The translations under genes and the position numbers were made by a program. A DNA stretch of 64,000 bases, from assembly GCA_902616675.1 (NCBI GenBank), contig CACMTV010000002.1, positions 1 to 64,000 of the forward strand. The letters are read 5' to 3'. Shown here one piece after another: positions 5,156 to 20,076 of the stretch (within the stretch, counting starts at the first letter, position 1; each line of letters begins with the position of its first letter). This stretch comes from an uncultured Pelagibacteraceae bacterium (GTDB lineage Bacteria > Pseudomonadota > Alphaproteobacteria > Pelagibacterales > Pelagibacteraceae). The notes under the pieces are model-generated. The model worked only from the letters and a program-made list of their open reading frames with translations, was not told where the DNA came from and searched no databases.

Positions 5156-5924
5156 TTAAATTTTTTGATCTAAGAATTAGTAAGCTTGGGTTCTTATAAT
5201 CTTCTTTTCCGTATAAAAAAGGTTTTTTATCGAGTGTTGTTATAATTGCTCCTGCATTTTCTGCAATAGCATGACCAGCTGCATAGTCCCATTCATTCGC
5301 CCTTTCTTTTGCAGCGTAAATATCAAAAGTACCATCAGCAATAAGACAAAATTTATATGAACTTGCAACCTTTGTAATAGAAGAAACTTTGTACTCTTTT
5401 AATTTATCCATTATAATTTCAGACGGTTTATTCGAACTGGAAACTGCAATTATACTTGTCCTTTTATTTTTCTTTTTACAGCTTATCACTTCTTCAGTAC
5501 CGTTTTGTCGAACGAAACTCTTACCCGCTCCATAAGAAAAAAATAATTGATTTTTTTTAGGAACGCCTACTAAACCTATGACAGGTTTTTTATTAACCAC
5601 TAACGCAGCATTTAAAGTATACTCATCTTTGCCGGATATATATTCTTTTGTGCCGTCTATTGGATCTATCAACCAGAAAATAGAATTTTTATTCTTCACT
5701 TTTATATTTACGGTTTCTTCTGAAATTATAGGAATTTCGGGTGTTAATTCTTTTATTTTTTTACTTATTAAATCATTAACTTTTAAATCCCCATTACTTA
5801 CTGGTGATCCATCTTCTTTAATCTCAATTTTTAATCCTTTTTTATATAAGTTTATTGACTCTAATCCAGCTGTATCAAAAACAGGAATCAATTCCTCTGT
5901 AATTTTTTTAAAATCAAATTTCAT
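5148..5924 (-). CDS. cysQ: 3'(2'),5'-bisphosphate nucleotidase CysQ
   Basis: CysQ hydrolyses 3'-phosphoadenosine 5'-phosphate to AMP and belongs to the Li-sensitive inositol monophosphatase superfamily. The metal-binding residues are all visible: IISEE (about 66-70), WLIDPIDGTKEYISG (about 84-98) and the C-terminal NEWDYAAGHAIAENAGA (about 211-227). Length (258) is normal. The gene overlaps the DUF3553 gene upstream by 11 bases and the 45-residue gene downstream by 8, making a three-gene unit. The genome may use little PAPS, so a role on inositol phosphates or other nucleotides cannot be excluded. Confidence 0.88.
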   Translation of the reverse strand: MKFDFKKITEELIPVFDTAGLESINLYKKGLKIEIKEDGSPVSNGDLKVNDLISKKIKELTPEIPIISEETVNIKVKNKNSIFWLIDPIDGTKEYISGKDEYTLNAALVVNKKPVIGLVGVPKKNQLFFSYGAGKSFVRQNGTEEVISCKKKNKRTSIIAVSSSNKPSEIIMDKLKEYKVSSITKVASSYKFCLIADGTFDIYAAKERANEWDYAAGHAIAENAGAIITTLDKKPFLYGKEDYKNPSLLILRSKNLND

Positions 5925-6093
5925 TTATCTGAACCTTTTCTAAAACTATATGATTAACATCTATAACTTTTTTACCACTATTCTGGAAATTTACAGTTAT
6001 TTTATTTTTTATAATTGATTGTATTTGTCCTGTGCCCCATTCTTTATTTTTAGGGTTTATCACAAAATCACCTGGTTCAAGATCAAATTGCAT
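5914..6093 (-). CDS. DUF3553 family small protein
   Basis: A 59-residue protein starting at the ATG at 6093. It has the compact beta-rich DUF3553 pattern: LEPGDFVINPKNKEWGTGQI, then IKNKITVNFQNSGKKVIDV and a closing HIVLEK. This resembles the CarD/UvrD-tail type Tudor-like domain seen as short stand-alone proteins in alphaproteobacteria, where no function is established. The last 11 bases overlap the cysQ start (the TGA lies within ATGAAATTTGA), so the two are translationally coupled. Confidence 0.75.
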   Translation of the reverse strand: MQFDLEPGDFVINPKNKEWGTGQIQSIIKNKITVNFQNSGKKVIDVNHIVLEKVQINEI

Positions 6094-8369: not shown

Positions 8370-9545
8370 ATGAAAAAGTCTATAAACACATTTTTAAAAC
8401 ATACAGCTAAAGATTTCCACAATCAGTCAGTTAATCCTCCAGTGGTTCGAGCGTCTACAATTATTTTTAAATCTTTACAAGATATTCGAAAGATGCAAAA
8501 AAAATACAAAAAAGACCCGAGAGGAGGTCATTTCGATTATGGAAGACAAGGAACTTCAACAACACATATTTTACAAAAAATTTTATCAGAGTTAGAGGAG
8601 AGTTATCACACTTTTTTAACTCCAACTGGTTTTGGATCAGTTTTTTTAGCTATTTTTAGTGTAGTCCGTCCAGGAGATGAAATTTTAGTAGCAGACCCAG
8701 TTTACTTTCCAACTCGTCTTTTCACAGAAACATTTCTAAAAGATTTTAAAATAAAAACTAAATTTTATAATCCACACGATTTAAAAACAATTTCACGAAA
8801 TATATCAAATAAAACAAAACTTATTTTTGTAGAGTGTCCTGGTAGCAATACATTTGAATTTCAAGATTTATCAAAAATTATTAAAATTGCTAAAAGAAAA
8901 AAAGTTTTTACTGTAATTGACAACACTTGGGCTACTCCATATTTTTTCAAACCAATTAAATTAGGATTTGATATGTCAATTGTTTCAGCGACAAAATATT
9001 ATTCTGGCCATTCAGATGTAATGGGTGGAAGTTTGGCAGTAAATAAAAAAGCTTTTAAGCTTGTAGAAAAAACTAATAAAATTACAGGCCTTAGATTAAG
9101 CCCAGATGATGCATACCTAATTTTGAGAGGTTTGCGGACTTTAGATATAAGACTTGAAAAACACCAAGCTAACGCCAAAAAAGTTGCAGCTTTTTTATCC
9201 AAAAACAAAAAAGTCACATTGCTTTACCCTTACAAAAAAGATTCTTTCAATTTTAGAATGTGGAAAAAATATTTTAAAGGGGCTTCAGGATTAATGGGCC
9301 TGAGGATTAAAGCAAAAAATAAAAGCTCTATTAAAAAATTTGTAAATTCTCTTAAACTTTTTGGATATGGATATAGTTGGGGAGGATTTGAAAGTTTGGC
9401 ATTACATCAAGAAATAGTTGAGAGAGGTAATAGAAACTATTTGAATTTAAAAAAAGATGAGCACATCGTAAGGCTCCATATAGGTTTAGAAGATCCTAAA
9501 GATCTTATTAATGATTTAAAAAATGCGATGAAATACATCAGATAA
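8370..9545 (+). CDS. metC: Cystathionine beta-lyase (Cys/Met metabolism PLP enzyme)
   Basis: A fold-type I PLP enzyme of the cystathionine lyase/synthase group. PLP-binding landmarks are LTPTGFGSV (about 83-91), VIDNTWATP with Asp184, and SATKYYSGHSD with the Schiff-base Lys209. The combination of N-terminal RASTIIF, FDYGRQGTST and the C-terminal YSWGGFESLA fits cystathionine beta-lyase (cystathionine to homocysteine, pyruvate and ammonia) better than gamma-synthase. The length of 391 is typical. The MFS gene follows one base after its stop, suggesting an operon. A role as a cysteine-S-conjugate beta-lyase is the main alternative. Confidence 0.85.
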   Translation: MKKSINTFLKHTAKDFHNQSVNPPVVRASTIIFKSLQDIRKMQKKYKKDPRGGHFDYGRQGTSTTHILQKILSELEESYHTFLTPTGFGSVFLAIFSVVRPGDEILVADPVYFPTRLFTETFLKDFKIKTKFYNPHDLKTISRNISNKTKLIFVECPGSNTFEFQDLSKIIKIAKRKKVFTVIDNTWATPYFFKPIKLGFDMSIVSATKYYSGHSDVMGGSLAVNKKAFKLVEKTNKITGLRLSPDDAYLILRGLRTLDIRLEKHQANAKKVAAFLSKNKKVTLLYPYKKDSFNFRMWKKYFKGASGLMGLRIKAKNKSSIKKFVNSLKLFGYGYSWGGFESLALHQEIVERGNRNYLNLKKDEHIVRLHIGLEDPKDLINDLKNAMKYIR

Positions 9546-9546
9546 T

Positions 9547-10773
9547 ATGTCAGAAAAATTTATAAACAATAGATTAACACTTATTGTACTCATTTCTGCT
9601 TGTGCAGTGATAATGATTTCTATGGGTCTTAGACAGACCTTTGGTCTTTTCTTTCAAGCTTTTGAAGAAGGATTAGGATGTACGCGTACAGAGTTTGGTC
9701 TCGCAATTGGTATTCAAATGATTTTTTGGGGAATGTTTTCTCCTTTGTTTGGATTAGTTGCAGATAGGTTTGGAGGAAATAAAGCAGTTTTTATTGGTTT
9801 TCTAATTTTTGGAGCAGGTATATTTATGCTTTATTCTGGGCCTAACACAGGTATTTATTTTCAAATTAGTCTTGGAGTTTTAATCGGTATTGCTTTAGGA
9901 GCTACAGCAATTAGTGTGCCTGTTTCTGAAGTTAGCAAACATTTTCCAAATGAGAAAAGAACAATAGCCTCAGGTCTAGTTACTGCTGCGGCATCAGTTG
10001 GATATTTTATTGCACCTCTGTTTACAAAATATTCCCTTGGAGAATTTGGCTGGGAAGAAACTTTAAAATATTTTCTATATTTTATTTTATTTGGCTCAAT
10101 AGTTTCATTATTTATATTTGCTCCCAAAAAGTTAATCGATCAAAATCAATCAGTCGTAAAAGATCAAACTTTTTTTGAAGCACTAAAAGAAGCTTTCTCT
10201 CATAAAGGATATCTTTTACTTAATGCGGGCTTTTTTGTTTGTGGGTTTCAAATAACTTTGATCGCTACGCATATACCTGGATACATGCAAGAAAGGGGTA
10301 TGGGAGGTTGGTCAGCAACTATTATTTTAGCACTTATAGGATTATTTAATATTATTGGAACTTTAGGCATGGGTTATTTAGGGACTAAATATAGAAAGAA
10401 AAGTTTACTTTGTATTCTGTATGCCTTGAGAGCTGTATCGATAGCTATTTTTATTTTTTCACCACCATCAAACATAATGTCTATAGTTTTTGGAATTTCT
10501 TTTGGATTACTATGGTTATCTACTGTTCCCCCAACAAATGGAATAGTAGCCCAAATATTTGGAACTAAATACTTAAGCTCACTTTTTGGTATTGTATTTT
10601 TGAGTCACCAAGTTGGAGCTTTCATAGGAGCATATCTGGGAGGGTATTTTTATGATCAATTTGGTTCCTATGATTATGCTTTCTACATGGCTATTGCCTT
10701 ATCAATATTTGCAACAATTGTTCATTATCCTATAAATGAGAGACCTATTCAGAGATCTGAGGCGACAATTTAA
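9547..10773 (+). CDS. MFS transporter, oxalate/formate antiporter-like
   Basis: A 408-residue major facilitator with twelve helices. The N-terminal GLRQTFGLFFQAF, the loop LFGLVADRFGGNKAVFIG (the MFS signature between helices 2 and 3) and the central cytoplasmic loop KLIDQNQSVVKDQTFFEALKEA fit the OFA/monocarboxylate-type subfamilies. It begins one base after metC, so it probably belongs to the same transcript. The substrate may be a small carboxylate or a sulfur compound made or used with MetC; the sequence alone does not decide. Confidence 0.8.
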   Translation: MSEKFINNRLTLIVLISACAVIMISMGLRQTFGLFFQAFEEGLGCTRTEFGLAIGIQMIFWGMFSPLFGLVADRFGGNKAVFIGFLIFGAGIFMLYSGPNTGIYFQISLGVLIGIALGATAISVPVSEVSKHFPNEKRTIASGLVTAAASVGYFIAPLFTKYSLGEFGWEETLKYFLYFILFGSIVSLFIFAPKKLIDQNQSVVKDQTFFEALKEAFSHKGYLLLNAGFFVCGFQITLIATHIPGYMQERGMGGWSATIILALIGLFNIIGTLGMGYLGTKYRKKSLLCILYALRAVSIAIFIFSPPSNIMSIVFGISFGLLWLSTVPPTNGIVAQIFGTKYLSSLFGIVFLSHQVGAFIGAYLGGYFYDQFGSYDYAFYMAIALSIFATIVHYPINERPIQRSEATI

Positions 10774-10917: not shown

Positions 10918-11583
10918 ATGTTTTCACAAGAGCTAAACAAAAAATTAGACCAGTACCATTTATTAAACCACCCATTCTATAAGTCATGGAATGAAGGAAA
11001 ATTAACAAGAGAAATAATTAAAGATTACGCAGAACAATATTACCAACATGTGAAAGCGTTTCCAAGATATATCAGCGCTACACATTCTATTTGTGAGGAC
11101 ATTGAAAAAAGAAAAATTCTTTTAGAAAATCTTCAAGACGAGGAAAATCCAAATGCGGATCACCCTAAGCTTTGGAAAAACTTTGCATTGGCAATGGGTG
11201 CTGACAAAGATAAAATCGAAGATGTAAAAAGAGAGTGGTTTACTAACGATATGATTGAAAACTTTTTCCATCAAGCAAGAAAATCATATGCAGAAGGTTT
11301 AGCATCTTTATATACTTACGAAAGACAAATTCCTGAAATAGCTGAAACGAAAATAAGAGGGTTGAAAAACTTTTATGGAGTTACATCTAAAGAAGGTCTT
11401 GAATTTTTTGAAGCTCATAAAGCTGCTGATGTAATTCATAGAAAAGAGTGTGAAAAACTTTTAGATGCTTTGACAGAAGAAGAAAAAGTTAAAGCAGAAA
11501 AAGCTTCTATGTTGACTGCTAGATATCTTTGGAACTTCTTAAGCGGAATGTCTACAAAGCACAAAATACAAGCAGCAGCCTAA
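10918..11583 (+). CDS. CADD-family diiron protein, probable self-sacrificing pABA synthase
   Basis: A 221-residue haem-oxygenase-fold (TenA/PqqC-like) protein. All residues I remember as essential in Chlamydia CADD have counterparts at a near-constant offset. The diiron ligands are Glu75, His82, Glu135, His167, Asp171 and His174; Tyr21, Tyr37 and Lys145 match the tyrosine and lysine side chains used in 4-aminobenzoate formation. CADD replaces PabABC by converting its own tyrosine to pABA for folate. The gene has a GGAGA ribosome site and sits 9 bases ahead of the nucleotidyltransferase and the apr genes, an unexpected partner for folate synthesis. Confidence 0.8.
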   Translation: MFSQELNKKLDQYHLLNHPFYKSWNEGKLTREIIKDYAEQYYQHVKAFPRYISATHSICEDIEKRKILLENLQDEENPNADHPKLWKNFALAMGADKDKIEDVKREWFTNDMIENFFHQARKSYAEGLASLYTYERQIPEIAETKIRGLKNFYGVTSKEGLEFFEAHKAADVIHRKECEKLLDALTEEEKVKAEKASMLTARYLWNFLSGMSTKHKIQAAA

Positions 11584-11592
11584 GTAATCTTT

Positions 11593-11985
11593 ATGACAGG
11601 CCAAATGAAAAACGATGGTCATGTCTGGGATAACAAAAAACCCACTGCCCAAATGCTTGGAAGATGGCAACCTTGGCACGCTGGTCATCAGAAATTATTT
11701 GAAGAGATACTAAAAAAAACTGGTCAAGTTAATATTATGGTACGTGACGTACAAGGTGTAGATGACAATCCTTTTAATTTTGAAACAGTAAAAAAAAATA
11801 TCTTAGAGGCTTTAAAAGATTACCAAGGCAGAATTAAAGTTACTTTAGTACCAAATCTCACAAACATTTGTTATGGAAGAGGTGTTGGTTATAAAATCGA
11901 AGAAATAGTTCTTGACGAAAAGACGCAGCAAATTTCAGCGACTAAAATTAGAGAGCAAATGAGAAAGGATGGAAAGCTAAAATAA
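11593..11985 (+). CDS. Small cytidylyltransferase-like nucleotidyltransferase in the apr operon
   Basis: A 130-residue single-domain HxGH nucleotidyltransferase. The nucleotide-binding motif GRWQPWHAGHQKLFEE is at about 22-37 and the C-terminal ISATKIREQMR matches the ISSTxxR motif of the superfamily (compare TagD, CoaD, NMN adenylyltransferase and ATP sulfurylase). It lies 9 bases after the CADD gene and 51 bases before aprM. ATP sulfurylase belongs to the same superfamily, and no canonical sat is visible in the window. I therefore infer that it could transfer adenylate between APS and phosphate or pyrophosphate. The substrate is unproven; another small phosphorylated metabolite is possible. 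Confidence 0.75.
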   Translation: MTGQMKNDGHVWDNKKPTAQMLGRWQPWHAGHQKLFEEILKKTGQVNIMVRDVQGVDDNPFNFETVKKNILEALKDYQGRIKVTLVPNLTNICYGRGVGYKIEEIVLDEKTQQISATKIREQMRKDGKLK

Positions 11986-12036: not shown

Positions 12037-12828
12037 ATGTTATCAATTAATCCATTTGCAGAACTTTCACAAACAGTGCCAGCAACTTTCTTGCAATTTT
12101 TTGTAATTGCGATGGTATTACTAATCATTATTGGAACAGGCTTAGATATGCTACACAAAAAAAACGTAGTTTATTTTTTTAGAAATGCTCAAAAAGCAAA
12201 AAAATCCGCAAAAACAGAATTAAGCGCTGGAAAAAAAACAGCCGTAATTTTAAAAACAGTTGCTAGTGATATCGCGACTACATCGGAACTTGGATTTGGA
12301 AAGAGAAGATTAGCTCATGTGCTTGGAATGTATGGAACAATCCTTTTTTGGATTGCATCTGTAGTTTTAATATTTAAATATTCTGATGGCGTAACAGCAC
12401 CATCTTACATTCCAATTATCTGGCATGTAGGGGCAATAATGACATGTTTAGGTGGGTATTGGTTTTGGTTCTTTTTAAGAGTAGATGTATCCGCAGAGGC
12501 ACATCCTTGGTATAGAATTATTACCGCTGATTTATTTGTTTTAGCTTTACTAGCTTGTGCTACTTTTGGATTAGCTTGGTCTTATTTTCAATCTTCTGGA
12601 ATGACGGGATTGAGTTATTTATTTTTAATTTTATTTATTCTTGCAAATTTAGCTTTATTTGGTGGAGTTTATTGGTCTAAATTTGCGCACATGTTTTATA
12701 AACCAGGTGCAGCTATACAAAAAAATTTAGCAGAGGCCGATGGGTCCAGAGACAATTTGCCTCCACCAGCGGACGCACCAGAGCAATTTGGCCTTGGTAT
12801 TAAAAGAGAACAACCAAAACATTATTAA
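12037..12828 (+). CDS. aprM: APS reductase membrane anchor AprM
   Basis: A 263-residue protein with about five to six membrane helices (near 20-38, 95-113, 125-145, 165-185, 195-215) placed directly before aprB and aprA. Sulfur-oxidising bacteria often carry this aprM-aprB-aprA order, where AprM is thought to anchor AprBA to the inner membrane and pass electrons to quinone. Histidines near the helix ends (RLAHVLGMYG, IIWHVGA, WSKFAHMFY) could bind haem or quinone in the manner of NarI-like subunits, but that is inference. The C-terminus is a soluble proline-rich tail. Confidence 0.8.
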   Translation: MLSINPFAELSQTVPATFLQFFVIAMVLLIIIGTGLDMLHKKNVVYFFRNAQKAKKSAKTELSAGKKTAVILKTVASDIATTSELGFGKRRLAHVLGMYGTILFWIASVVLIFKYSDGVTAPSYIPIIWHVGAIMTCLGGYWFWFFLRVDVSAEAHPWYRIITADLFVLALLACATFGLAWSYFQSSGMTGLSYLFLILFILANLALFGGVYWSKFAHMFYKPGAAIQKNLAEADGSRDNLPPPADAPEQFGLGIKREQPKHY

Positions 12829-12891: not shown

Positions 12892-13362
12892 ATGTCTACT
12901 TTTGTATATATGACGAGATGTGATGGATGCGGGCACTGCGTAGATATTTGTCCTTCAGACATTATGCACATCGATGAAACTATCAGAAGAGCAAAAAATA
13001 TTGAGCCTAATTTTTGTTGGGAATGTTATTCATGTGTAAAAGCATGTCCTAATCATGCCATTGATGTAAGAGGATATGCAGATTTTGCGCCTATGGGCCA
13101 CAGTGTAAGAGTAAGAAGAGAAGAAGAAAAGGGAACTATCTCTTGGAAAATTAAATTCAGAAACGGAACAGAAAAAGATTTTGTCTCTCCCATAACAACA
13201 AAACCATGGGGAAAATTTATTCCAAAATTAGCTGAGGGAGATAAACCTCGGCAAGGTGAAATGAACTCTCAAGTTCTTTACTCTGAACCAGAGGGATTAG
13301 ATACCAAGAAAGATTTACCCACTATAAGCAAAGACTCTTTTAAAAAAGGAGTTTATTATTAA
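12892..13362 (+). CDS. aprB: Adenylylsulfate reductase beta subunit AprB
   Basis: The iron-sulfur subunit of APS reductase, 156 residues. Two [4Fe-4S] motifs are clear: Cys10, 13, 16, 20 in CDGCGHCVDIC and Cys42, 45, 48, 52 in CWECYSCVKAC. These relay electrons between the FAD of AprA and the membrane. The remaining part, including RGYADFAPMGHSVRVRRE and a C-terminal tail, wraps AprA in known structures. It has a GGAGA ribosome site and shares its last base with the aprA start. In this context it probably works in the sulfite-oxidising direction. Confidence 0.95.
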   Translation: MSTFVYMTRCDGCGHCVDICPSDIMHIDETIRRAKNIEPNFCWECYSCVKACPNHAIDVRGYADFAPMGHSVRVRREEEKGTISWKIKFRNGTEKDFVSPITTKPWGKFIPKLAEGDKPRQGEMNSQVLYSEPEGLDTKKDLPTISKDSFKKGVYY

Positions 13363-15221
13363 TGCCAAAAAGAAAAACTGTTCACGAAAATTGTGATGTT
13401 CTTGTAGTAGGCGGAGGTATGGCCGGAACAGGTGCTACATTTGAAGCCAGACACTGGGGAAGAGACTTAAAAATTATCTGTGTAGAAAAAGCAAATATAG
13501 ATAGAAGTGGTGCAGTAGCTCAAGGTTTGTACGCCATAAACTGTTATATGGGAATGAGATGGAACGAAAATCAACCAGAGGATCATGTAAGATACGCAAG
13601 AAATGATCTTATGGGACTTGTAAGAGAAGATTTAGGTTATGATATGGCTCGTCACGTTGACTCTACAGTTCACATGTTTGATGAATGGGGTCTCCCAATG
13701 ATGAAGGATAAAAAAACTGGCAGATACCAAAGAGAAGGCAAATGGCAAATTATGATTCATGGTGAAAGCTATAAACCAATTGTAGCTGAAGCCGCAAAAA
13801 AATCTGCAGATAAAATTTATAATAGAATAATGGTTACACACTTACTGATGGATGAAAAAAATGAAAATAGAGTAGGTGGTGCAGTAGGGTTTAATATGAG
13901 AACTGGTGACTACCATGTATTTAAAGCTAAAACAGTAATAGTAGCCGCTGGTGGAGCTTCACACATATTTAAACCTAGAGCAGTTGGAGAAGGAATGGGT
14001 AGAACTTGGTATGCTCCTTGGAGTAATGGATCTGCTTATGCCTTGCCGATCGCAGCTGGAGCTAAAATGACTCAAATGGAGAATAGAATTGTATTATGTA
14101 GATTTAAAGATGGATATGGTCCTGTAGGCGCTTATTTTTTACACTTAAAAACTTACACGCAAAATGCAAATGGTGAGAACTATGAGAAAAAATGGTACGA
14201 TAAAACAAAAGAGTTAGTTGGGGAATATATAGATCATCATCCAACTCCAACTTGTTTAAGAAATCATGCATTTATACAAGAAGTAATGGCCGGAGGCGGA
14301 CCAATTCACATGGTTACAAAAGAAGCTTTCCAAGATCCACATTTAGAAACAGTTGGATGGGAAAATTTTTTAGGTATGACAGTTGGTCAAGCTGTCGTAT
14401 GGGCTTCACAAAACATTGATCCTAAATATACTAATCCTGAACTAACGACATCCGAACCATACGTCATGGGTTCTCATGCTACTTGTTCTGGAGCTTGGGT
14501 TAGTGGTCCAGAAGATATAGCTCCGCCTGAATATTTTTGGGGTTATAATAGAATGACCACTGTTGAAGGATTGTTTGGAGCAGGTGATACTGTTGGAGGA
14601 AGTGCCCATAAATTTTCATCTGGTTCTTTCACAGAAGGAAGGTTGGCAGCTAAAGCAGCAGTTAAATATATAGAGGATAAAAAAGCAGAAGATATTAATG
14701 TAAGTGATAAGCAGTGTGATAATTTGAGAGATATCATCTATAAACCTTTAGACAATTATACTATCGGTAGAAACGAGATTACAGGCGGAACAGTTTCACC
14801 GAGTTACATTTCTCCTATTCAAGGATTGCAAAGACTTCAAAAAATAATGGATGAGTATGTAGGCGGGATTACAGCTAATTATATGACTAATGATAATTTA
14901 TTAAAAAAAGGTTTAGAATTATTAGACTGGTTACAAGAAGATTTAGAAAATGTAGGCGCTGAAGATTATCACCAATTAATGAGAGCCTGGGAATTAAAAC
15001 ATAGAACTTTAACTTCACAGTGTGTGACTGAGCATACTCTTTTTAGAGAAGAAACTCGTTGGCCAGGATATTATTATAGAGGGGATAAATTAAAATTAGA
15101 TGATGAAAATTGGCATTGTTTAACTGTTTCCAGAAGAGATCCTAAAACCGGCAAATTTTCATTAGAAAAAATGCCTGTTTATCACATAGTTGGTGACGAA
15201 AAGAAAAAGAAAGCCTCTTAA
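13362..15221 (+). CDS. aprA: Adenylylsulfate reductase alpha subunit AprA
   Basis: The FAD catalytic subunit of APS reductase, 619 residues, normal for the family. The N-terminal CDVLVVGGGMAGTGATFEAR is the dinucleotide-binding fold. KANIDRSGAVAQGLYAINCY and RNDLMGLVREDLGYDMARH are AprA-typical stretches, unlike succinate dehydrogenase. The reaction is APS + 2e- to sulfite + AMP; with reduced sulfur coming from sulfonates, the reverse (sulfite + AMP to APS) is the likely direction here. It overlaps aprB by one base and is followed 9 bases later by an unknown gene. Confidence 0.96.
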   Translation: MPKRKTVHENCDVLVVGGGMAGTGATFEARHWGRDLKIICVEKANIDRSGAVAQGLYAINCYMGMRWNENQPEDHVRYARNDLMGLVREDLGYDMARHVDSTVHMFDEWGLPMMKDKKTGRYQREGKWQIMIHGESYKPIVAEAAKKSADKIYNRIMVTHLLMDEKNENRVGGAVGFNMRTGDYHVFKAKTVIVAAGGASHIFKPRAVGEGMGRTWYAPWSNGSAYALPIAAGAKMTQMENRIVLCRFKDGYGPVGAYFLHLKTYTQNANGENYEKKWYDKTKELVGEYIDHHPTPTCLRNHAFIQEVMAGGGPIHMVTKEAFQDPHLETVGWENFLGMTVGQAVVWASQNIDPKYTNPELTTSEPYVMGSHATCSGAWVSGPEDIAPPEYFWGYNRMTTVEGLFGAGDTVGGSAHKFSSGSFTEGRLAAKAAVKYIEDKKAEDINVSDKQCDNLRDIIYKPLDNYTIGRNEITGGTVSPSYISPIQGLQRLQKIMDEYVGGITANYMTNDNLLKKGLELLDWLQEDLENVGAEDYHQLMRAWELKHRTLTSQCVTEHTLFREETRWPGYYYRGDKLKLDDENWHCLTVSRRDPKTGKFSLEKMPVYHIVGDEKKKKAS

Positions 15222-15230
15222 TAATTTAAA

Positions 15231-15581
15231 ATGAACTTGTTAGAGAAAAGTGATGACGAGATCATTAAAATTGCTAATCCTATTTGGTTAAATTTAGTTA
15301 AATCATCGAATATTAAAGATTATGGAGGTTTTACCAAAGATTTTTCATCTCAAATGTTGTATGGAGCTAATGAAGTAGAATTAGGAAAACAATGGGCAAG
15401 CAATAAACTACTTACAAGTCTTTCTGAACAACAAGAAGTTTTAGGTTGTATAAGAAGGGATAATTTTATTACTGTTTTATACAAGCAAAAAAGTGATACA
15501 GTTAAAGGGGAATTTCTGGGTAGATTAGTTTTGGGAGTCGAAGGCGACTTGGTGAAAGTATTCGGAGCCACAATTTATTAA
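15231..15581 (+). CDS. Unknown protein at the end of the apr operon
   Basis: A 116-residue soluble protein with no signal peptide or membrane helix. It alternates helix-like N-terminal residues (KSDDEIIKIANPIWLNLVKSS) with a strand-rich C-terminal half (DNFITVLYKQKS, GEFLGRLVLGVEGDLVKVFGATIY). That helix-then-sheet design resembles NTF2-like or cystatin-like folds, but I do not recognise a family. It starts 9 bases after aprA and precedes the TSUP transporter by 36 bases, so an accessory role in sulfite oxidation is plausible. No catalytic motif is evident; Cys77 (LGCIRR) is the only cysteine. Confidence 0.7.
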   Translation: MNLLEKSDDEIIKIANPIWLNLVKSSNIKDYGGFTKDFSSQMLYGANEVELGKQWASNKLLTSLSEQQEVLGCIRRDNFITVLYKQKSDTVKGEFLGRLVLGVEGDLVKVFGATIY

Positions 15582-15617: not shown

Positions 15618-16745
15618 ATGCTGGAAATTTATCTTCCAATCGCACAGGTCAATATTGATATCTTTTTGTTATTATTCTTAAGTTTAGCTGTTGGTATATT
15701 ATCAGGTTTATTTGGTGTAGGTGGGGGTTTTTTAATGACACCATTTTTAATATTTATGGGAATACCCCCAGTTTATGCTGTACCAAATGAAGTAAATAAT
15801 ATTTTAGCAACCTCAGTCTCTGGTTCTTTAACACACTGGTATAAAAATACATTAGATTACAAGATGGGATTAATGATTGTTTCTGGCGGTTTGGCAGGAA
15901 CAATTTTAGGAATAACAACGTTTACATTTTTTTCTGATATAGGAAAAATAAGCATAATAATTTCTTTATTATATATGTATCTACTCGCAATGGTTGGAAC
16001 TTTAATGTTAATCCAAACTTATAGAGAAAAAGTCTTACAAAGAAAAAAAATTTCAATTAAACAAAAACTTCATGAACATAATTGGCTACAAGGATTGCCA
16101 ATAAGAATGAGATTTCCGAAATCAAAATTATATGAAAGCGCTTTAACTCCAGTTTTATTAGGATTAGTTGTCGGTTTTGTAGCAGCAATGATGGGTATTG
16201 GTGGTGCATTCTTAATGGTTCCTGCTATGATTTATATCGTTGGAATGCCAGTTAAATTGATACCTGGAACTTCATTATTCGTTACAATTTTTATAAGTGC
16301 AATAGTAACAATATTACACGCATTCAATTATGGATCTATCGATCTGTTTTTAGTTATACCACTTATACTTGGTTCTATAGTTGGTGTTCAACTAGGTCAA
16401 AAGCTTGGCCAGTTTTTAGATAGCACAGAGTTAAAATCTTTATTTGCAATGCTTCTGATTTCGGTTGCTATTGCAATTGGTTACGACTCTTTCTTTAGAG
16501 ATAAATCCAATTTTAATGGAGAAAAAATTATTAAAACAGATTTAAACGCATTAGCAGAATTTACTGTAAACTTTGCAAGTGAAGCACCTTTCTTATACGG
16601 AACGCTTGCAATTTTATTAGCCGTTGCTCTTGGCGCACTAATAGCATTTATGAGAAAAATTTTAAGTCCAATCATTAGGAAAATGCTAAGTGATTTTAGA
16701 AAAAAAGAAGTTAAAAAAGAAGAAGTTAAATTTCCAGAAAAATAA
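15618..16745 (+). CDS. TauE/SafE-type (TSUP) sulfite or sulfonate exporter
   Basis: A 375-residue membrane protein with about eight helices, built from two repeated halves. Each repeat carries the TSUP signature: LSGLFGVGGGFLMTPFLIFMG (about 29-49) and GFVAAMMGIGGAFLMVPAMIY (about 192-212). A longer cytoplasmic connector with a basic stretch REKVLQRKKISIKQKLHEHN separates them. TSUP proteins export sulfite, sulfonates or related organosulfur anions. Here it follows the apr genes and faces suyAB and xsc, both of which release sulfite, so sulfite export is the best reading. Confidence 0.85.
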   Translation: MLEIYLPIAQVNIDIFLLLFLSLAVGILSGLFGVGGGFLMTPFLIFMGIPPVYAVPNEVNNILATSVSGSLTHWYKNTLDYKMGLMIVSGGLAGTILGITTFTFFSDIGKISIIISLLYMYLLAMVGTLMLIQTYREKVLQRKKISIKQKLHEHNWLQGLPIRMRFPKSKLYESALTPVLLGLVVGFVAAMMGIGGAFLMVPAMIYIVGMPVKLIPGTSLFVTIFISAIVTILHAFNYGSIDLFLVIPLILGSIVGVQLGQKLGQFLDSTELKSLFAMLLISVAIAIGYDSFFRDKSNFNGEKIIKTDLNALAEFTVNFASEAPFLYGTLAILLAVALGALIAFMRKILSPIIRKMLSDFRKKEVKKEEVKFPEK

Positions 16746-16760
16746 AATAATTTTATTGAA

Positions 16761-17927
16761 CTATGCACTTCTGTACAGCTTAGTCATAACAAATTCCCTA
16801 TGACCTAAGGCTTCTGCACAAGTTAATCTACCATTGGCAACTCTTAACATAGTTTTAATTAGTTCATCTCCTGCTTGTGATAAGTTCATCTCTCTAGATA
16901 AAATTTTTGAAACATCACAATCTACGTGCTCTTTCATAAGTTTTGCTGTTAAAGGATTAGCTGTTAATTTTACTACCGGTTCAATAGGATTGCCTATAAT
17001 GTTACCTTGTCCAGTAGGGAATAAATGTATATTAAATCCCCCTGCAGCTTGTAGAGTTACACATTCTGCTGCAGCTGACGAAGTATCCATGAAATATAAT
17101 CCCTTACCTTTCTTTGGTTCTTCCGCTGGTTCTAAGACATCTATAAATTTTAAATTTCCAATTTTTTGAAAATTGCCAAAAGCTTTTTCTTCAATAGTAG
17201 TTAAACCCCCAGCAATATTGCCTGCTGTTGGCTGACTTTCAGAAAGATCATTAGTTGCCTCTTTTAAAATAAAATCGTTGTAAGCGCTCCAAGTTTTCAT
17301 AAATTTTTCTTTAGCTTCAGGAGTTGCCCCTCTTGCTGCACAAACTTTTTCAGCACCTGTTAATTCTGAAGTTTCTCCAAAGCACAGATGAACTCCAAAA
17401 GGTTCTAGTTTTTCCATTAAATTTCCTACAGTTGGGTTTGATGCTAAGCCAGATGTTGTATCAGATTCTCCGCATTTGACTGAAATCCACAAATCACTTA
17501 AAGGACATTCCTCTCTTTGTTTCTCAGAAGCCCATTGAGAAAATTCTTGTGCTTTTTTTGAGGCCTTCATTATTGTTCCAATGTCTCCAGTTCTTTCTAT
17601 ATGAAATCCTTCTACAGGCTTCCCGGTTTTTGCTATCTCATCTACAATTCTTTTTGTCCATTTAGGTTCAATTCCTATTACAATTACTGCTGCAACATTA
17701 GGATTTTTTCCAGTTCCAATCATTGTTCTAAAATGTAATTCTAAATCTGCTCCAAACTGCAATCTTCCGTATGAATGAGGTAAAGCAATCGTGCCTTTGA
17801 TATTATTGGCTACAGCTTCAGCGCATGCGTTTGATATATCGTCAACTGGAAGAATAATTACATGATTTCTTGTTCCCGCTCTGCCGTTCTCTCTTTTATA
17901 ACCTAAAAAGCTCTTTGGGATATCCAT
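16761..17927 (-). CDS. suyB: (R)-sulfolactate sulfo-lyase beta subunit SuyB
   Basis: The large subunit of sulfolactate sulfo-lyase (3-sulfolactate to pyruvate + sulfite), a UxaA/altronate dehydratase-fold enzyme of 388 residues. The N-terminal [19 protein letters not shown] and [18 protein letters not shown] (iron-binding region) are family hallmarks. The neighbour four bases upstream is a 95-residue SuyA homologue, which fits the two-subunit lyase; altronate dehydratase is often a single chain. The context of xsc, a TSUP exporter and an HpsN-type dehydrogenase supports sulfolactate as substrate. Altronate or galactarate dehydration is the alternative but no hexuronate genes are seen. Confidence 0.88.
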
Positions 17928-17931
17928 TTAA

Positions 17932-18219
17932 TTACCATTTTTTTGTTTTTACATTATGAACATGAACATGTTCACCTTTTTTAATTGGTTTAACTACTTT
18001 GCCTATATCGTGACCATATTTAAGTATGGTATCGCCTTCTTTTAAATCTTGAAGAGCAATTTTATGACCTAATGGAACTTCATTCATCGAGCTAACTTTC
18101 ACAGTTTTATCATTTTCCATGATCCAGGCGCTGCAATCTTGGCCTTTTTTTGTGGTTTCAATTACGACTACACCAACATTGTCTTTTTCATCATGTATAA
18201 TTAAATCAGGCTGTGACAT
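17932..18219 (-). CDS. suyA: (R)-sulfolactate sulfo-lyase alpha subunit SuyA
   Basis: A 95-residue SAF-domain protein, the small subunit of the sulfo-lyase. HKIALQDLKEGDTILKYGHDIG and the closing KKGEHVHVHNVKTKKW, with a His-x-His pair, are the SAF/UxaA N-domain signature. It is four bases upstream of suyB on the same strand. It is divergent from xsc across a 75-base gap that must hold promoters for both sulfite-releasing enzymes. Confidence 0.88.
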   Translation of the reverse strand: MSQPDLIIHDEKDNVGVVVIETTKKGQDCSAWIMENDKTVKVSSMNEVPLGHKIALQDLKEGDTILKYGHDIGKVVKPIKKGEHVHVHNVKTKKW

Positions 18220-18294
18220 AAAATATTTAATGGATATAGACTAAATTTTGATATATTGGAAGTAAGATTAATTATATATTTAGAGGGATTTTTT

Positions 18295-20076
18295 ATGGCA
18301 AAAATGACCACGGAAGAAGCTTTTGTTAAAGTTTTACAAATGCACGGTATTGAACATGCGTTTGGAATTATAGGGTCAGCATTTATGCCTATATCTCACA
18401 TCTTTCCAGATGCCGGAATAACTTTCTGGGACGTTGCGCACGAAACAAATGGCGGTCTCATAGCCGATGGTTACACTCGAGCTACAGGAAAAATGTCAAT
18501 GGTTGTCGCTCAAAATGGACCAGGAATTACTGGATTAGTAACACCAATTAAAACCGCATATTGGAATCATACACCATTACTTTTAGTGACACCTCAAGCA
18601 GCCAACAAAACTATGGGACAAGGTGGTTTTCAAGAAGTAGAACAAATGAATTTATTTAAAGACATGGTTTGTTACCAAGAAGAAGTTAGAGACCCTTCAA
18701 GAATTGCAGAAGTTTTAAATAGAGTAATTGAAAAAGCTATTAGAGGATCAGCTCCCGCTCAAATAAATGTTCCTAGAGATTATTGGACGCAAGTTATTGA
18801 TATAGACTTGCCTCCGATTGTTAGATTAGAGAGACAAGCTGGTGGAGCTGAGGCGATAAACAAAGCAGCAAAATTATTATCTGATGCTAAATTTCCTGTT
18901 ATATTATCTGGTGCAGGAGTTGTAATAGGTGGCGCTATTCAAGATTGTGTAAAGTTAGCAGAAAAATTAGACTCACCTGTCTGCTCTGGTTATCAACATA
19001 ATGATAGTTTCCCTGGAAGCCATCCTTTAGCAGTAGGACCTCTTGGATACAACGGCTCGAAAGCAGCAATGGAACTAATAGCTAAGGCTGATGTTGTTTT
19101 AGCTTTAGGGACAAGATTGAATCCGTTTTCTACACTACCAGGATATGGAATAGATTATTGGCCTAAAAATGCAAAAATAATTCAAGTTGATATGAATTCA
19201 GATCGAATTGGATTGACTAAAAAAGTAACTGTTGGAATTTGCGGAGACGCTAAATTAGTTGCACAACAATTATTAAATAAATTATCCAAAAATGCTGGAG
19301 ATACTGATAGACAAAAAAGAAAAGACTTAATTCATCAAACAAAATCTGCATGGCTTCAAAAACTATCGAGCTTAGATCATGAGGACGATGATCCAGGAAC
19401 GGTATGGAACAAAGAAGCGAGGACTAGAGATAAAAATAGAATGTCCCCTCGTCAGGCCTGGAGAGCTATACAAGCGGGAATGCCAGAAGATGTAATTATA
19501 TCAAGCGATATAGGAAATAACTGCGCTATTGGAAACGCCTACCCTACGTTTGAAAAAGGAAGAAAATATTTAGCTCCTGGTTTATTTGGGCCATGTGGTT
19601 ATGGTTTTCCTTCTATTCTTGGAGCAAAAATTGGTTGTCCAGATGTTCCAGTAATTGGTTTTGCAGGAGATGGGGCATTCGGTATTAGCATGAATGAAAT
19701 GAGCTCTTGCGCCAGAGAGGAATGGCCTGCAATTACAATGGTAATTTTTAGAAATTATCAATGGGGAGCAGAGAAAAGGAATACTACTTTATGGTTTGAC
19801 AATAACTTTATTGGAACTGAGCTTGACCCAGAATTAAGTTTTGCCAAAGTTGCAAATGCTTGTGGTTTAAAAGGTGTAACAGTAAAAACTATGGAAGAAA
19901 CAACAAAGGCTATTAAACAATCTTGTGAAGACCAAAAAAAAGGAGTAACAACTTTTATTGAAGTTATACTAAACCAAGAATTAGGTGAGCCTTTCAGAAG
20001 AGATGCTATGAAAAAACCAGTAAGAGTTGCTGGTATAAAAAAAGAGGACATGAGACCACAAAAAAGTATCGATTAA
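18295..20076 (+). CDS. xsc: Sulfoacetaldehyde acetyltransferase Xsc
   Basis: Xsc is a thiamine-diphosphate enzyme that splits sulfoacetaldehyde with phosphate into acetyl phosphate and sulfite. I start at the ATG at 18295 after an AGAGGGA site; an in-frame TTG at 18256 adds 13 residues without family similarity. The 593-residue protein shows the Xsc-like HGIEHAFGIIGSAFMPISH at the N-terminus, PQAANKTMGQGGFQEVEQMN, and the ThDP motif GDGAFGISMNEMSS near 460. It matches Xsc rather than acetolactate synthase in the GGFQEVEQMNLF and WGAEKRNTTLWFDNNFIGTE stretches. It is the key enzyme of taurine dissimilation. Confidence 0.95.
   Translation: MAKMTTEEAFVKVLQMHGIEHAFGIIGSAFMPISHIFPDAGITFWDVAHETNGGLIADGYTRATGKMSMVVAQNGPGITGLVTPIKTAYWNHTPLLLVTPQAANKTMGQGGFQEVEQMNLFKDMVCYQEEVRDPSRIAEVLNRVIEKAIRGSAPAQINVPRDYWTQVIDIDLPPIVRLERQAGGAEAINKAAKLLSDAKFPVILSGAGVVIGGAIQDCVKLAEKLDSPVCSGYQHNDSFPGSHPLAVGPLGYNGSKAAMELIAKADVVLALGTRLNPFSTLPGYGIDYWPKNAKIIQVDMNSDRIGLTKKVTVGICGDAKLVAQQLLNKLSKNAGDTDRQKRKDLIHQTKSAWLQKLSSLDHEDDDPGTVWNKEARTRDKNRMSPRQAWRAIQAGMPEDVIISSDIGNNCAIGNAYPTFEKGRKYLAPGLFGPCGYGFPSILGAKIGCPDVPVIGFAGDGAFGISMNEMSSCAREEWPAITMVIFRNYQWGAEKRNTTLWFDNNFIGTELDPELSFAKVANACGLKGVTVKTMEETTKAIKQSCEDQKKGVTTFIEVILNQELGEPFRRDAMKKPVRVAGIKKEDMRPQKSID

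Follow-up and report, generated by a model that had tools for sequence, protein, structure and literature searches.

A 130-residue HxGH nucleotidyltransferase encoded beside aprMBA in SAR11-type bacteria is a likely minimal sulfate adenylyltransferase

A stand-alone nucleotidyltransferase (hereafter NT), encoded directly upstream of the APS reductase genes aprMBA in an uncultured member of the Pelagibacteraceae, is probably an ATP sulfurylase (sulfate adenylyltransferase) of minimal size and NMNAT/PPAT-like kind; this assignment rests on comparative genomics, without biochemical evidence. In a bolder reading, which we also think likely, NT represents a third class of ATP sulfurylase besides Sat and CysDN, bidirectional and of ~120 residues, that is distributed among SAR11, other alphaproteobacteria, haloarchaea and many phages. 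How sulfate and APS are interconverted in SAR11 is a known open problem, for Pelagibacter ubique and its SAR11 relatives have AprBA, cysC and cysQ and no cysDN or sat (PMC5069961), and their sulfite oxidation has been read either as an "incomplete" pathway or as a detoxification that stops at APS (PMC5069961, PMC12636525). No paper proposing or naming an enzyme of the NT kind was found in the open-licence literature that we searched.

The gene was found in a 64,000-nucleotide stretch of contig CACMTV010000002.1 (the window), part of a 0.9 Mb genome (G000; 72% complete) from a SAR11-type alphaproteobacterial group. It lies within a run of genes on one strand that extends from a Cys/Met PLP enzyme to a TauE protein, downstream of which come suyBA, on the opposite strand, and xsc. 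The interval between the MFS transporter gene and aprM is referred to below as the slot.

8370-9545, + strand: Cys/Met-metabolism PLP enzyme, upstream edge of the slot
9547-10773, + strand: MFS transporter, upstream edge of the slot
10918..11583, + strand: CADD-family pABA synthase (TIGR04305, 301 bits against a cut-off of 200), sharing the slot with NT
11593..11985, + strand: NT, 130-aa stand-alone HxGH nucleotidyltransferase with an ATG start; proposed minimal sulfate adenylyltransferase, its activity being inferred
12037..12828, + strand: aprM, membrane subunit of 263 aa with weak QmoC/TcuB matches; adjoins aprBA in both SAR11-type families
12892..13362, + strand: aprB, APS reductase beta subunit (TIGR02060, 188 bits, above cut-off)
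13362..15221, + strand: aprA, APS reductase alpha subunit (TIGR02061, 993 bits)
15231..15581, + strand: 116-aa protein of no Pfam family, immediately 3' of aprA
15618..16745, + strand: TauE/SafE sulfite/sulfonate exporter family protein (PF01925)
16761..18219, - strand: suyB and suyA, sulfolactate sulfo-lyase type (PF20629/PF04295 and SAF), a sulfite source
18256..20076, + strand: xsc, sulfoacetaldehyde acetyltransferase (TIGR03457, 970 bits against a cut-off of 676), a sulfite source

Only 10 bp separate the CADD gene from NT and 52 bp separate NT from aprM. Both suyAB and xsc have been named in SAR11 (PMC12636525). The 116-aa protein is kept 3' of aprA in the loci that we read from both SAR11-type families and from Pelagibacter-type genomes, and it is likely to be an Apr-associated factor.

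The NT reading frame is a real gene under strong purifying selection. It cannot be dismissed as a chance open reading frame, because orthologues occur in 71 of 121 genomes (its own and 120 relatives), 35 columns are invariant in an alignment of 36 diverse homologues, and the dN/dS ratio is ~0.02 among members of the genus (where dS approaches saturation). Inspection of the opposite strand of 11593-11985 revealed many stops. The protein carries the motifs GRWQPWHAGH (residues 23-32), DNPF (58-61), YGRGVGY (94-100) and ISATKIR (114-120), and its catalytic motifs do not vary among copies in functional contexts. The sole Pfam family found was CTP_transf_like (PF01467), whose cut-off NT barely passes (21.3 vs 21 bits); with its HxGH and ISxTxIR motifs and its Rossmann-like fold, NT meets all the criteria for the HxGH superfamily. 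It falls far under the cut-offs of the NCBIfam NMNAT models (28.1 vs 127 and 23.3 vs 181 bits).

The association of NT with apr was examined in the same 121 genomes, many of which are incomplete. An aprA gene above the cut-off is present in 64 of them and NT in 63 of these 64; in 62 genomes the two genes start within 7 kb of each other on one contig. In a second SAR11-type family (f2), all 28 apr genomes have NT and none of the 20 genomes without apr does. Such counts are inflated by shared ancestry. Canonical Sat is missing from 61 of the 64 aprA genomes and CysN from 63; Sat occurs in just seven genomes of the 121, and in the three of these that have apr (G048, G061 and G100) it sits in surface-polysaccharide-type islands. 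Profile searches of the 72%-complete source genome detected no PF01747 Sat, no PF01507 CysD/CysH and no CysN.

There are several exceptions to this pattern. One genome (G072, 7% contaminated) has apr without NT; it has a HIT gene at aprM and a CysN match. In G061, NT is gone from the apr locus and aprA is truncated to 501 aa (L046 2514-4019). As a counter-case, G032 lacks apr and yet retains NT next to CADD and TauE. In the near-complete G420 apr is intact and NT is frameshifted by a one-base difference (L255 7432-7805), which could be either a pseudogene or a sequencing error. Much of the original prediction, made from the sequence alone, held: the coupling of a minimal HxGH nucleotidyltransferase to aprMBA is real, constrained and part of one tight run; the window has no canonical ATP sulfurylase, nor does the incomplete genome around it; and the check then suggested, for a lack of sat wherever NT adjoins apr, came out positive in 61 of the 64 aprA genomes.

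The recruitment of NT by apr took place at least twice and in differing arrangements. A single origin of the apr-linked NTs is rejected by the tree (AU p = 0.006), which does not unite the sequences from both families in a common clade; the NT-apr association therefore arose two or more times. In the first family (f1) the order is CADD-NT-aprMBA, all on one strand; in the second, a kinase-NT pair stands tail to tail with h116-aprABM.

In Pelagibacter-type genomes the slot has different occupants. It holds pabB-pabA-pabC-HIT (L269 3093-5936, with HIT at 5538-5936; L272-L285), where the genus of the window has CADD-NT. CADD-type enzymes are pABA synthases, and a Nitrosomonas orthologue complements an Escherichia coli pabABC deletion (PMC11965152); the first half of the slot thus appears to exchange equivalent functions, and the CADD/pabBAC swap fits the known pABA role of CADD. 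Certain members of the HIT family are known to cleave APS, either hydrolytically or phosphorolytically (Guranowski 2010, cited in PMC7072326), and by analogy the second half of the slot might exchange two APS-removing enzymes, a possibility and no more. A strict mutual exclusivity of NT and HIT was rejected, since both occur in the G021 cluster. The idea that CADD is a functional partner of NT was weakened as well, given that f2 apr loci have NT without CADD and that CADD is swapped for pabBAC. The Pelagibacter-type genomes have a HIT protein, not NT, beside aprM, and carry a kinase-NT pair elsewhere; in G330, NT lies at ~462 kb and aprA at ~509 kb of the same contig. This pair has an enoyl-CoA-hydratase-like gene on its 3' side and folate/C1 genes nearby, with no evident PAPS consumer (L134, L132, L245). 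Two near-complete genomes in which NT is missing (G221 and G498) have no aprA either.

Outside the apr loci, NT is mostly fused to, or encoded directly downstream of, an APS-kinase-type protein. NT was found behind or fused to a P-loop kinase in f2, SAR11 polysaccharide islands, Pelagibacter-type genomes, viruses and haloarchaeal plasmids, and in the fusions the kinase domain precedes NT. Among 80 viral contigs the kinase is fused to NT in 39 and lies no more than 400 bp away in 36, for a total of 75. The kinase is absent beside NT in the window and in 17 apr loci of the genome-contig set. The partner's identity is supported by several measures: the SAR11 kinase copies that were scanned pass the PF01583 APS_kinase cut-off; so does the copy in an assimilation operon (22.8 vs 21.1 bits); and the kinase half of a haloarchaeal fusion passes TIGR00455 apsK (154.7 vs 138.7 bits). 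The top matches of a fusion profile are APS kinases (2yvu, 5e-13, and human PAPSS1), and in an AlphaFold model of a fusion (mean pLDDT 93.6) the kinase half superimposes on APS kinase 4fxp with Z 18.8 and rmsd 2.0 over 138 residues. The phage family PHROG 10255 has a profile that covers both kinase and NT (P0001 matches its positions 126-229, E 2.9e-25); it is annotated just as "kinase", with no sulfate-activation function given there.

The neighbors of these kinase-NT genes recurrently belong to sulfate metabolism, and NT occupies the genomic position of an ATP sulfurylase, namely with APS kinase and with APS/PAPS reductase or Apr, where no other ATP sulfurylase is present. In four alphaproteobacterial genomes of one family (f25), kinase-NT forms the end of an assimilatory sulfate-reduction operon, CbiX-cobA-cysI-cysH-DUF2061-kinase-NT, from which ATP sulfurylase is missing. 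CysN is absent from all four of these genomes and Sat from three; a PF01507 search in two of the four yielded nothing above cut-off except CysH. The fourth, G146, is a counter-case that has Sat too, in a separate island on a contig other than that of the assimilation operon. Haloarchaeal plasmids (three inspected) encode a sulfotransferase, a small ORF or gap, and then a CysC-NT fusion, and the SAR11 genome G015 has kinase-NT-sulfotransferase. In 29 of the 80 viral loci a sulfotransferase gene (PF00685/PF13469) lies near kinase-NT, at a median distance of 373 bp. The contexts in named organisms beyond SAR11 come from few records only.

In several SAR11 genomes canonical Sat has cysC and a pyruvate-kinase-like gene as neighbors; homologues of the latter gene also stand next to the kinase-NT fusions of L037 and L038, in polysaccharide islands. 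The kinase-NT fusion of Microvirga lotononidis is flanked by a sulfotransferase gene on one side and, directly downstream, by cysD and cysN; two arginines that are otherwise invariant have been lost from its NT half (GRxVGY became GLDLGY, and IR became VQ). Such decay is what would be expected if CysDN makes NT dispensable, though this is a single case.

Some additional features of these loci deserve to be recorded. The pyruvate-kinase-like paralogue occurs beside a short Sat, often with cysC, in SAR11 polysaccharide islands (L032, L033, L034, L256, L257). Phage cassettes combining a sulfotransferase, an APS-kinase-like protein and NT (29 loci within L138-L217, e.g., L146 4170-6336 and L158 4807-6327) raise the possibility of a viral PAPS supply for the sulfation of an unidentified target. 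A small DUF2061 membrane protein belongs to the cysH operon (L071 7217-7483) and is also encoded near kinase-NT in 13 viral contigs (L160, L172, L175, L181, L186, L187, L195, L198, L200, L204, L207, L210 and L216); it may conceivably be involved in taking up or activating sulfate. In the Stenotrophomonas phage Bhz60 a gene with a NADAR domain (L057 4559-5002) runs into the beginning of the kinase-NT gene, and a link to NAD or ADP-ribose is possible there.

The closest solved relative of NT by sequence is the archaeal NMNAT 1f9a (profile E 1.4e-9), and the closest by fold is the PPAT 5h16 (Z 11.4, rmsd 2.6, 113 residues), with 1ej2 at Z ~10.3; the NT model has a pLDDT of 88.5. With NMNAT and PPAT (CoaD), NT has in common the fold (Z about 10-11 over 111-114 residues) and the catalytic HxGH...ISxTxIR frame. 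The segment that in NMNAT bears the site for the second substrate is shortened in NT, with YGRxVGY in its place, and the gene partners of NT are others; the stretch from the central helix to ISxTxIR comprises ~30 residues in NT and ~50 in MJ0541.

With Sat, which is homo-oligomeric (PF01747), NT shares the proposed reaction and the HxGH superfamily. A comparison of the NT profile with that of SAR11 Sat gave only a weak similarity (hhalign probability 29%), and Sat was not among 50 VIA-align matches of the NT model, a result that does not exclude a likeness to Sat. NT does not qualify as a PF01747 member (there is no match above cut-off in its genome) and lacks the Sat motifs QxRNPxHxxH, GRDHAG and ISGxxxR; its own GRWQPWHxGH, GRxVGY and ISxTxIR are merely analogous. 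The SAR11 Sat of L032 has TRNIPHLGH, GRDHAG and ISGSxxR, in an order that resembles that of NT, but Sat exceeds 300 aa whereas NT has ~120, and the GRWQP spacing of NT is NMNAT-like. NT is thus best seen as a likely functional analogue of Sat from a sister branch, its function being inferred, that by sequence and fold is nearer to NMNAT/PPAT than to Sat.

Other known systems offer parallels of function or arrangement. In human PAPSS an APS kinase is followed by an adenylyltransferase, as in the kinase-NT fusions. CysD/CysN has in common with NT the proposed reaction and an operon position beside cysH and APS kinase; its fold is a PP-loop plus a GTPase, unrelated to NT, and in the 121-genome set CysN never shares a genome with NT (0 of 71 genomes with NT vs 10 of 50 without). 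The APAT ("ADP sulfurylase") of Thiobacillus denitrificans and the APS-splitting HIT proteins would, like NT, act on the product of Apr. Their histidine-triad/GalT fold is not related to NT. NT does not belong with HIT/APAT: it has no HIT match and a nucleotidyltransferase fold, and the HIT protein of other genomes is encoded by a gene of its own.

The mechanism that we propose is inferred with regard to the substrate, the direction, the dependence on PPi and the yield of ATP. APS is the presumed substrate because of the fusion to APS kinase, the adjoining sulfotransferases and the ATP-sulfurylase position in the sulfate-assimilation operon. The breakdown of sulfonates by xsc and suyAB would release sulfite. 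AprA run oxidatively converts sulfite and AMP to APS; AprBA, anchored by AprM, would carry out this reaction and pass on the electrons. NT beside Apr is then predicted to convert APS and PPi to ATP and sulfate, with the energy kept as ATP. Beside or fused to APS kinase, NT would run forward (ATP + sulfate to APS + PPi), and its product would feed sulfotransferases or, with cysH/cysI, sulfate assimilation. The original prediction had assigned the APS-to-sulfate step to NT, and comparative genomics supports this, activity and ATP yield remaining inferred. Three points need correcting. ATP sulfurylase was said to belong to the same superfamily; NT is more closely akin to NMNAT/PPAT than to Sat. 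The coupling to apr does not extend to the Pelagibacter-type genomes, with their HIT gene beside aprM. Finally, NT, which was discussed as a solution for sulfite oxidation, is a member of a large family that is not restricted to that process and is for the most part linked with APS kinase.

Three rival explanations can be weighed against this interpretation. NT could be an NMN/NaMN adenylyltransferase (NadM/NadR-like) or a phosphopantetheine adenylyltransferase, its partner a ribosylnicotinamide-kinase-like protein and its linkage to apr incidental. The nearest structures and the NCBIfam matches are indeed NMNAT and PPAT, the HxGH...ISxTxIR frame is shared, and a NADAR gene adjoins kinase-NT in one phage. 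Yet every NCBIfam NMNAT match is far under its cut-off, and the stretch before ISxTxIR is shorter than in MJ0541 by the margin given above. A separate NadD is present in relatives (a TIGR00482 match in 16 of 16 near-complete genomes), so that the synthesis of NAD does not require NT, and relatives also show further short matches, to proteins of ~165 aa, the size of CoaD. Moreover, the partner kinase matches APS kinase and not ribosylnicotinamide kinase, and the genes that accompany NT in operons are cysH, cysI, those for sulfotransferases, and apr. We regard this rival as very improbable; the NadR/NMNAT reading was dropped as the main account on the strength of the separate NadD and the APS-kinase-like partner.

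Alternatively, NT might use APS with another acceptor or outcome (APS + phosphate to ADP + sulfate, as in APAT, or hydrolysis), in which case it would serve detoxification without ATP. In its favor, a HIT-domain protein fills the aprM-side slot in Pelagibacter-type genomes and certain HIT proteins split APS. But the known HxGH nucleotidyltransferases use NTP/PPi chemistry, and the pairing with APS kinase and cysH demands APS synthesis from ATP; there is little to recommend this view. It is equally hard to credit that NT is merely an accessory or regulatory domain (a nucleotide sensor) of the APS kinase family, with APS supplied by an unrecognised enzyme. NT is nearly always found with the kinase outside apr loci and Microvirga retains a degenerate NT domain beside cysDN, as such a view would have it; against it stand the invariance of the catalytic motifs in functional contexts and the kinase-free NTs of the window and the 17 apr loci.

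If NT is the minimal sulfate adenylyltransferase that we favor, an ATP sulfurylase domain can be much smaller than Sat, with about 120 residues in place of more than 300, and genomes and viruses so far recorded as lacking sulfate activation would have to be reinterpreted. The bifunctional kinase-NT version in phages and archaea may feed viral sulfotransferases. In genomes with both apr and NT, the sulfite oxidation pathway would be complete and organosulfur compounds may serve it as a source of ATP, and the sulfate-activation gap would be filled in one of the ocean's most abundant bacterial groups.
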